DNA of 64,000 nucleotides from positions 8,358,485-8,422,484 of the forward strand of contig NC_134027.1 of NCBI RefSeq assembly GCF_964204645.1. Reading direction: 5' to 3'. Shown one piece after another: positions 59,301 through 63,413 of this stretch. Made by a program: the position numbers and the translations under genes. The notes under the pieces were generated by a model, which did not search any database, was not told the origin of the DNA, and was given only the letters and a program-made list of their open reading frames with translations. How positions within the stretch are numbered: position 1 is the first letter of the stretch; every line of letters begins with the position of its first letter. The DNA is from Tubulanus polymorphus. Taxonomy: Eukaryota > Nemertea > Palaeonemertea > Tubulaniformes > Tubulanidae.

Positions 59301-62300
59301 ATGTATCAATGAAAATTTCCAATGTTTCATAAATAAGAAAAGATCCTGCAAGTAGGAAGCACAACGAACAACCCCAGTATCCCTATATAATAAAAAAATT
59401 CTGGTTTTTTATCATACAGGGACACTGGAGTTGGTCATTGATTCTGGTTTTATTCATTCATTGTTGATTGTGACAAGTCCCTGTAGGCGTATAACTACTT
59501 GCAATTTTTCAAACCATTCCCCAGTCAAACCATCATGTAATACACAAAAGGATACACATATCATAAAATATCAGATCAGATTCAGGTCGGTCCCACAGTT
59601 CATCAATAGATAATGAACACTGAAATTTAAAATTGACAATTTATGTTAGGCTAGAGATATGGCTCTTGATTTTTTTAGGCCTTGGCCCTAAGAAAATTTG
59701 TTAAGTTCCCACTAGTCCGACTAGTCCTGTAGGACTAGGCATTTGAAGTTTAAGTTGACAAATGGTGATGGACACCAAACAACAACAGAGACCCCTAACC
59801 CATCACCTCTGCTGACTTTTTTGGGAGCTAAAGATTCATCAATTCATACATTGTTTCATGGTTCACAGCAAAAAAATTTACAAATTATCAATACACATCA
59901 ATTTCTTACCAATTTCATATGACAGCCACACAAATCACTTACCGTTTTAGAGTACGATGTCCCAAATTGGTAAGCAGAATCCATTTCCGAAAAAGATCCC
60001 TTACATAATTGAAGTTTTCCACCTGTTGCCGGAGTAAATCCCAAGAACGTGCCGTTCAAGCTATACTGGGCGAGGCGGAAATTTAAATTTGACGTTTCAG
60101 CTGGCCCATTGAATGTAAACTTTGTCGTAATTTTTGTCTCGGTGAGGACTTGTCCCGCGTCCTGCTCTTGATAATACAACCACGGCATATTAGCTGGCCT
60201 AGAATATGTAATATGGTATAGGGTGAACTAAAAACCGAACAGAGCTCATTCATTTATTACGTACGCATAAAACTTCCCCCTTCCCCGTACGCAATATGGG
60301 CTATTTTGTCATATACATTAAGTATAACAGTACGCAACTGCATTTACCCCACCCCTTCCCCTAATGCGTACGTAATAAATGAATAACCCCTTAGTAAACT
60401 ACAAATGAATTGACTGTTGTCATACAAGTACCAGTAAATATCATCTACATGAATATTTACCAATCATTTCTGCCGCCACCAACTGATGCCCGTAACCTCT
60501 CATACTGAGAGCATGCATCGCCTCCAGCCTTGCCAAAATTGTCCATGTTACCATAAATCAGCGAGCACAGATTACCGAGCAGTTCGCAAGCAGTTCGATT
60601 CGAAAACCTCTCCTACAATAAATCAGAAAGGTATCAGTAGAGTAGAAGATTGCAAGCTCACAGATGTGTTATTAGTTTAAGTTAAGTTCTGATCTAATGA
60701 AGTAAATGTATTTGAAGCATTAATATCAGAGAACATATGCACTGTGGGCCTACCTCACACATGGCAACTGCAGCTCTGATATTCCGTTGGAAATATGCCG
60801 ATTCGACAGTTTGTGTATCATCCTGCAGAAATGTATAAACAATACGCTAATTTCTAGGATTATATCATACCGGTTAAGCAGCCCATAATTAGAACAGACA
60901 TAAGCCTGGAACTATTGAATTTCATATAACTTTGACTTAATTTTCGTATAATGTACTGTATGAAGACGAACTTTGAAAATATCTTACAGAGGCTTTGATA
61001 GCGTACAGAGATACCGTATCAACTGGTAAATCACTTTGCGACGCAAAACATAATCCACCCGACTAAAAACAGATGAAACACGAAAACGTTTTTTACGAAA
61101 AGAATTCAGCGATGAAAGCGAGATACGGCTCAAATCTTCTTCCATGATACCTTTTGGCTTGGAGGACAGTCACAATTTGTCGAAGCGGGTATCATAGACA
61201 ATAACTGATTGCAACGTTCACATCTACAAAACAATTAGGGTACAGTTAGTCTTAAGTCCCGATCAGTCCAATACTCTAATCTAATGGTACGTGCGATATG
61301 GGCTTCTGTTACGTACCTTGATGATCCACCGTTCGGTTTTGTTCTACCGATACAAGCTTCACACATTCGAACATTTTGTGTTTGAGCGCTGTTCTTCAAC
61401 CATGTACCGTTCAACGTACGTTCGACTAAAAATGACATTATTAATTGTGATGGACTATCTATCATTATAATGCATTACAGTCATCGAATAGCCAAAGGAC
61501 CAGTTGCTCAAAAGGTTGGTTTAAGATAACCATAGTAACAATACAGTTTAAATTGACTCTATGTCAACCATCTACCGGTTAACTCTAACCGAATTTTCAG
61601 CAACCTGGCCACAGAATTCTTTCTTTTATTTAAGTCAATTAATTCATATTATACATCTTTTTTTTTATTTTGAAATTTTCTATTTTTCGTATATGATGTA
61701 ATACCACACAACTATTTGCATTTTATTCATTCAAAAAAGACAAATACAGAGAAAGCTAAGAAAGGATTATCAAGGAAAATATCATAGGCACGGACAAAAA
61801 GGGTAGAATTTAATAGGATTGTGAAGAAAGAATATTTATACATACCAGCAACGTAAAATGGTAAACAAGATTGGCAGGTTTTAGTAGCAACGTTGACAGG
61901 ATTCGTTGAATCACACTCAACACAATTCCAACCATCTAAACTAGTCACCTATTCATACAACAGAATTTACCTTCATATCACAGCGAAATCGATGTTAGGT
62001 GCTGATCGTATTAGCTAAGTGCCCGTGATTAGTAAATCGTGTTATGAAGCAGAAATGATTAGCTTATTTACATTGAGAGTCAAGTAAAGCTATAGCGTTA
62101 TTCATGCCTAATTTGTAAAAGCACTAACATAAAGCTCATTACATGAAGGTGACACTACAAATTGAGAGCTAACTCACAACTCTTCAACTGCAGCTTGTCA
62201 ACGGTTTATAGATGAAAGGTCAGTAGCTCAAAAGTTGTTTAGAGTTAACTAATGGAAATATCACGTAGTGACAATTAAAAGTTCATTGTTACTATGGTAT

Positions 62301-63413
62301 TCATCCACCGGTTATCTTAAACCAACCTTTGAGAAATTGACCGGAACTGTCCACTTGTTATTTGATAGTTAAGAGTAGTTAAGTTTTAGCAGAAGGCAAG
62401 TCTGGATTCATGTCAGTAATAACATAGACACAATGCTAAAAATATATACATCATTGAGCTGGCTACCGTTACTATCATGCAAGTGATACCTGTAAGCTTT
62501 GAGCTGGGGCAACTCGGACAAATTCCTGGGTTAATGTTAGGTACCGTGTTACATTTTACACAATTCCAACCATCCAGGGAAACAATCTTTGTGAAAAATT
62601 AGAAAATTTTCATATTCAACATCGATATATTTAGTAGTTATCATATTTTTAGGGCGTGAGTATAATGATGTTAGAAACCTGGCAAATTATGGCAGTTTTA
62701 TGTATTATAGGCCCTATCATGGATAATGAGTATGTGAAACAAAGTGCACCAAAATCTAAAAAATCTATTTTGAAAATTTAAATTCATTTCATGACTAGGC
62801 TTTCCAAATGACAAGATCATTTATTTCACTTAATCAATCACTGCTATACATTTCAATTTAGTTTATTCAATGAGGCATTTCATACTGCAAATAAACAGAT
62901 TCTCTCTCTCAAACTCTGCTTATATAACTTTTTTTCAACCAAATATTTCACTGACTGGTTCGGTTTTCTTAAATAGGACTAAATTTAGGCTACAATTCCA
63001 AGATAAGATACTTACAAGTCCATTTGGACATTTCTGACACTGGATATCTCCACCATAATTTTTTGTAAGCTTATATCCCTGTTGGCATTTACATGTAAAT
63101 CCTGTAAAAAAACAAAATTATGACGCAAAAATAATTATGCTGCACTCAATATAGCCAGGTCTTTTAATAATCAATAAATTTTAGTTTATTTACCATTTGG
63201 ACTTTGAATCTGAATGCTGCTGGCAGCAGAACAAGGGGAGCATTTCAATTGCGTGATGTCGTAGAATTCGTGAACACTATCAGCAGCAGTATTTTTACAG
63301 TCTTTAACTGTCTGATAGGGAATAAAAACGGCAGCTTCAACAGTGCCGACTACAAAAATTAACAGAAATACTACGCTCAGGATCGATTTGTTTAGATCAT
63401 CGTCCGCCATCAT
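56335..63413 (-). CDS. TMEM67: Meckelin (TMEM67, MKS3), transition-zone receptor
   Basis: Meckelin is a membrane protein of the ciliary transition zone; loss causes Meckel and Joubert syndromes in humans. Exons: 63194-63413, 63016-63101, then either 62490-62586 or 61846-61948, then 61317-61425, 61151-61223, 60988-61062, 60754-60822, 60461-60612, 59943-60198, 59556-59619, 59132-59227, 58884-58967, 58624-58796, 58290-58544, 57708-58158, 57359-57567, 57104-57226, 56908-57018, 56715-56817, 56493-56635 and 56335-56415. The result is 1011 residues with the downstream alternative exon, 1009 with the upstream one; human is 995. A signal peptide covers about 10-27, followed by a Cys-rich domain to about 220 and a beta-rich region including [11 protein letters not shown]. 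Several membrane helices start near 530. Conserved blocks are [41 protein letters not shown] and the end [10 protein letters not shown]. All phases agree. Confidence 0.96.
59370..59433. mobile_element. Compact palindromic MITE in TMEM67 intron
   Basis: CCCCAGTATCCCTATATAAT then AAAAAA is mirrored by TTTTTTATCATACAGGGA and CACTGGAGTT, arms of about 29 bases around a short loop. It lies between the exons at 59556-59619 and 59132-59227. Confidence 0.65.
60245..60390. mobile_element. Palindromic MITE, TCATTCATTTATTACG family, copy D
   Basis: CTCATTCATTTATTACGTAC then GCATAAAACTTCCCCC at the left. CCCCTAATGCGTACG then TAATAAATGAATAACCCC at the right. It lies in the TMEM67 intron upstream of the exon at 59943-60198. 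Confidence 0.75.
61497..61610. mobile_element. Palindromic MITE, GGCCAGTTGCTC family, copy 2
   Basis: GGACCAGTTGCTCAAAAGG then TTGGTTTAAGATAACC at the left. ACCGGTTAACTCTAACC then TTCAGCAACCTGGCC at the right. Lies just downstream (in gene direction) of TMEM67 alternative exon 3b. Confidence 0.7.
61846..61948 (-). other. TMEM67: TMEM67 alternative exon 3b (Cys-rich)
   Basis: 103 bases, phase 0 to phase 1, acceptor ATGAATAG and donor GTATGT. It encodes [16 protein letters not shown] followed by a CQSC pair. It aligns with exon 3a and with the single human segment containing DGWNCISC. Entered from exon 2 it stays in frame; entered from exon 3a it reads GGT GAC TAG and stops. Confidence 0.85.
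62217..62345. mobile_element. Palindromic MITE, GGCCAGTTGCTC family, copy 3
   Basis: GGTCAGTAGCTCAAAAGTTG at the left. CCACCGGTTATCTTAAACC then AACCTTTGAGAAATTGACC at the right. Lies between TMEM67 alternative exons 3a and 3b. Confidence 0.7.
62490..62586 (-). other. TMEM67: TMEM67 alternative exon 3a (Cys-rich)
   Basis: 97 bases, phase 0 to phase 1, acceptor TTCACAAAG and donor GTATCA. It encodes [17 protein letters not shown] followed by [11 protein letters not shown]. It keeps the WNCxxC and CxxC pairs of exon 3b but differs between them, so it is a diverged duplicate rather than a recent copy. Confidence 0.8.

Follow-up and report, generated by a model that had tools for sequence, protein, structure and literature searches.

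Mutually exclusive exons that arose by tandem duplication are a well-described class, familiar in genes generally. Human clusters of such exons have been catalogued, and 60% of them contain exons of length not divisible by three; according to the same source, many similar neighbouring exons in human are spliced in a non-exclusive way (PMC5740500). Exons 4a/4b of OGDH (PMC7969005) and Ab/3 of U2AF1 (PMC5224494) are tandem duplicates used in a mutually exclusive way. Exclusive exons guided by RNA structure, by means of docking and selector sites, have been described as well (PMC6071210). For TMEM67, the gene considered here, a search of open-access papers gave no report of an exclusive exon choice, and the author of the original prediction likewise knew of none.

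The window, which is the whole stretch of 64,000 nucleotides of Tubulanus polymorphus DNA that was analysed (C3:8358485-8422484, in a searched genome of 268 Mb and 77 contigs), harbours the whole of a minus-strand meckelin (TMEM67) gene, 63413 to 56335. Meckelin, a membrane protein of the cilium, is a core protein of the ciliary transition zone, and its gene is a human ciliopathy gene. The exon model was assembled manually on the basis of open frames and GT/AG sites, then checked by script. It consists of 21 coding exons if one copy only of two similar exons, A and B, is counted, and of 22 with both. The parts needed for the comparison of the two copies are the following.

56335-63413, minus strand: whole meckelin/TMEM67 coding region (gene model, PF09773 and 7FH1), 22 exons with both A and B.
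63016-63101, minus strand: meckelin coding exon 2, the upstream partner, ending in phase 0 (gene model).
62490-62586, minus strand: exon A, the first of the two DGWNC exons, 97 nt long, entered in phase 0 and left in phase 1, acceptor cacaaag/ATT, donor ACAG/gtatca.
61846-61948, minus strand: exon B, the second of the two, 103 nt long, entered and left in these same phases (0 and 1), acceptor gaatag/GTG (weak), donor GCTG/gtatgt (strong).
61317-61425, minus strand: meckelin coding exon 4, the downstream partner, entered at phase 1 (gene model).

With exon A only, the reading frame encodes 1017 aa, and with exon B only 1019 aa; both are open. The A product matched PF09773 with an E value of 3.7e-278, from residue 170 to 1017 and over positions 2-825 of the 825 of the profile, which is a full-length family match. 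The B product matched human meckelin (7FH1) over nearly its full length (1e-235), and this alignment revealed that the N-terminal cysteine-rich region with its DGWNC unit is present as in human. A phmmer search with the N-terminus of the B isoform alone missed 7FH1; since the region does align in the match obtained with the whole B isoform, this miss was discounted. No second meckelin locus was found in the genome, no other meckelin exon showed a second copy, and no relatives turned up when viral and prokaryote contigs were scanned with the best-conserved exon of meckelin. A small exon near 60905-60871 was dropped from the model, as no phase fits it; with the acceptor at 60846 the frame is consistent.

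Some other elements of the window were recorded along the way. The intron between meckelin exons 10 and 11 (59555-59228, minus strand) is a textbook U12-type intron, of the minor spliceosome, with donor GTATCCTTTT and branch site TCCTTAAC placed 14 nt before the acceptor, each scoring 8/8 on its consensus string. Regarding human genes with minor introns, the text of a 2026 paper names other MKS genes, not TMEM67 (PMC13216214). Outside meckelin, an intronless ORF of 1028 aa (43038-46124, minus strand) resembles by eye an RNA-binding protein of the RBM12 type, in which several segments are RRM-like and one stretch is rich in Arg/Asp, and a single-exon cytochrome P450-like ORF of 559 aa is found at 30402-32081, also on the minus strand.

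Exons A and B were found exactly where the original prediction had placed them, as two consecutive exons encoding diverged versions of one DGWNC-containing segment. Exon A encodes 32 residues plus a G and exon B 34 residues plus a G; the introns from exon 2 to A, from A to B and from B to exon 4 are 429, 541 and 420 nt long. The phases announced for the two exons are correct: exon 2 closes at 63016 in phase 0 and the exon after the pair is entered from 61425 in phase 1, so that either copy fits between them. The predicted GGT GAC TAG at the A-B junction is real, and joining A to B at their full-length sites leads to a stop at codon 137, while skipping both leads to a stop at codon 107. Such a frame break upon joint inclusion is expected from the duplication of an exon whose length is not divisible by three.

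The claim that including both exons breaks the frame therefore stands for the exact full-length sites. It falls for an internal acceptor at 61935, through which the two copies can be joined in frame, and which defines a shorter exon.

61846-61935, minus strand: B', a possible shorter exon B, 90 nt, internal acceptor tttag/ATGG, in frame after A.

An A-B' joint would produce a meckelin with an extra DGWNC unit, either constitutively or as one isoform. The frame is then kept over all the rest of the gene, and of the in-frame pairs enumerated this one scored best, the B' acceptor reaching 0.79 versus -1.05 for the acceptor of full-length B. The B' acceptor however comes after two further AGs, at -5 and -13, in sequence of 41% pyrimidines, and human meckelin has one unit here, as had been stated for vertebrate TMEM67 and as the 7FH1 alignment bears out. 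The sequence upstream of 61935 also speaks against B'. Its 13 bases belong to the coding sequence only with a start of B at 61948, and they still encode VTSL, where A starts with IVSL, even though the codons of the two residues in common, Ser and Leu, have 5 of 6 bases different. The match despite these codon differences favours full-length B, and an A-B' joint would leave it unexplained. We consider this reading, the chief alternative to an exclusive choice, improbable.

Comparison of the two copies revealed 14 identical residues out of 32 aligned, among them DGWNCV and the four cysteines, which form two CxxC pairs; the paired cysteines said to be kept thus all match between A and B. The similarity exceeded that of all 5000 shuffles. 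BLOSUM alignment scores were 69 for A with B, versus 33 for A with human and 25 for B with human. As the A-B score is above that of either copy with human, the duplication most simply took place within this animal's own lineage. The copies have since diverged far, with a pS of 0.84, which is saturated, and a Ka of 0.64, and the two length differences between the copies are both multiples of 3.

The segment located after the second cysteine is barely alignable between A and B (z = 2), so that the two products would differ clearly there. This divergence of the tails may reflect relaxed constraint on one copy, which counts against an exclusive choice, and together with the weak acceptor of B it is what could be expected if a single copy were used in practice, the other being a relic or a rarely used exon of no consequence. 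Neutral drift was simulated under a simple scheme that ignores indels (which would lower survival further) and assumes the drifting copy to have taken at least half of the divergence. At 0.35 substitutions per site, frame, four cysteines and splice dinucleotides were kept with a probability of at most 0.004; at 0.5, about 2 of 10,000 runs (about 0.0002) kept them. A neutral copy at saturated synonymous divergence would thus rarely keep its frame, its four cysteines and both splice sites. Neutral decay of either copy is unlikely, as judged from the sequences, because synonymous sites are saturated while all cysteines persist, and neither copy is probably dead. We regard the use of a single copy, with the other of no consequence, as quite unlikely.

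Splice sites were scored with a weight matrix made from the other sites of the gene (n=18, leave-one-out), so that the scores are rough. Donors scored 6.0 for A and 9.4 for B, within the range of 2.3 to 12.4 of the other U2-type exons of the gene, and acceptors 1.0 for A and -1.05 for B, within a range of -5.1 to 9.8. All four sites are GT/AG, and the splice sites of both exons can indeed be called intact, as had been proposed. A CTAAT branch site precedes exon A by 13 nt, in an AG-free tract that is 76% pyrimidines. Upstream of B the pyrimidine content is 47%, and the sole YTNAY of the last 60 nt is located 47 nt before the acceptor with an AG in between, so that the AG-free zone of this acceptor is without a YTNAY branch site. 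The same pyrimidine-poor tract contains, 22 nt upstream of the B acceptor, a sequence resembling a donor.

61965-61973, minus strand: 5' splice-site-like AAGGTAAAT, score 9.61, the highest donor score in the region, last 'exon' base 61971.

It may correspond to a repressive U1 site. Given the better acceptor and the branch site of A, and the strong donor, poor acceptor and upstream AAGGTAAAT of B, exon A is probably used by default, and B would be the one under regulation, kept back and then activated in a particular setting.

The usual ways of enforcing an exclusive choice were then compared with the locus. A steric block, which applies when donor and branch point are less than about 50 nt apart, was rejected given the 541 nt of the A-B intron. 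Incompatibility between U2 and U12 sites was rejected too, no U12-type sites flanking either exon: the best U12 match at the A donor was 6/8, with a branch match of 3/8 (A to B) or 6/8 (A to exon 4), against 8 and 8 for the true U12 intron of the gene, and no incompatible pair was found among the A and B sites. That neither of these usual enforcing mechanisms was found counts against exclusive use, as do the many similar human neighbours without exclusive splicing (PMC5740500).

As for RNA structure, no set of docking and selector sites was found; the two introns flanking B were the only ones to pair beyond shuffles (z -3.2), and they do so through copies of a repeat.

62200-62345, no strand assigned: short palindromic interspersed repeat (MITE-like) in the A-B intron, about 80-87% identical to its best genome copies.
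61480-61620, no strand assigned: related repeat in the intron between B and exon 4, in the opposite orientation to the first, 74-85% identical to the best others in the genome.

The palindromic repeat is about 120-125 bp long, with 1378 first-look candidates genome-wide, sometimes in tandem, and the identity levels of its copies make them look younger than the exon duplication. The inter-intron duplex was estimated at -85.7 kcal/mol, only slightly better than the -78.1 kcal/mol of two separate hairpins (-39.3 and -38.8). On this folding model, a looping-out of B by pairing of the repeats is possible. At 60241-60391, meckelin intron 8 contains a short element of another kind, whose terminal inverted repeats are 28 nt long and 89% complementary.

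We favour, as a reasonably probable reading, an old tandem exon duplication whose copies are spliced one at a time. A and B would be tandem-duplicated, long-diverged copies of the ancestral DGWNC exon of meckelin, and the spliceosome would link exon 2, through one or the other, to exon 4. Two full-length meckelins would result, distinguished by about 32-34 extracellular residues. Messengers with both copies, at full-length sites, or with neither would have their frame broken within a few to about 35 codons, and be sent to nonsense-mediated decay. We infer that the frame would thereby enforce one copy per mRNA, with A and B in their default and regulated roles. The one-at-a-time use put forward in the original prediction thus finds backing at the level of sequence, as the copies are old and intact paralogues of lengths that are not multiples of three, with conserved cysteines and usable splice sites.

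The coupling of splicing to decay is, in general, a well-established phenomenon. The pair of exons could accordingly be read as an on/off switch, in which inclusion of both or of neither yields decay-targeted mRNA and lowers the dose of meckelin, the protein difference being secondary. Double inclusion and double skipping do each give early stops. Such a switch would leave unexplained the coding capacity and the cysteines preserved in both copies, where a plain skippable exon would suffice, and we hold it to be very unlikely.

If the one-copy-per-mRNA reading is right, the composition of the transition zone would be tunable by splicing, and the natural swap would offer two ready-made variants with which to test what the cysteine-rich domain recognises. 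If the anatomy alone is right, this is one more tandem exon duplication. The original prediction placed the choice where a ligand would bind, and this point found no support here, as nothing in the analysis ties the A/B segment specifically to binding. The N-terminus of meckelin (F39-T478) is reported to bind Wnt5a in vitro, in an assay that used it whole, and four missense changes, M252T, L349S, Q376P and R440Q, reportedly abolished the binding (PMC4457033). All four lie well outside the human residues that match A and B (about 105-136), so that any part played by the exon choice in recognising a ligand is speculative. A regulated, old and selection-preserved choice by which a transition-zone receptor of this lineage swaps part of its extracellular cysteine-rich domain, and which so confers different partner preferences by type of cell or cilium, is tentative and on the unlikely side.

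Compared with human TMEM67/meckelin (7FH1), the Tubulanus gene gives a full-length ortholog match with the same DGWNC unit followed by VER.NGT, whereas the human protein has a single such unit, at about residues 105-136, and a second cysteine pair of the CxC type versus CxxC here. As in exons guided by RNA structure (PMC6071210), pairable repeats are found in the introns on both sides of B, but in contrast to those exons the pairing sequences are copies of an abundant palindromic repeat. Compared with known exclusive exons, the exclusivity of A and B is so far a prediction, and an in-frame joint form exists via the internal acceptor. Like mutually exclusive tandem-duplicate exons, A and B are adjacent, homologous and similar in length, and they share the same phases and lengths that are not multiples of three.
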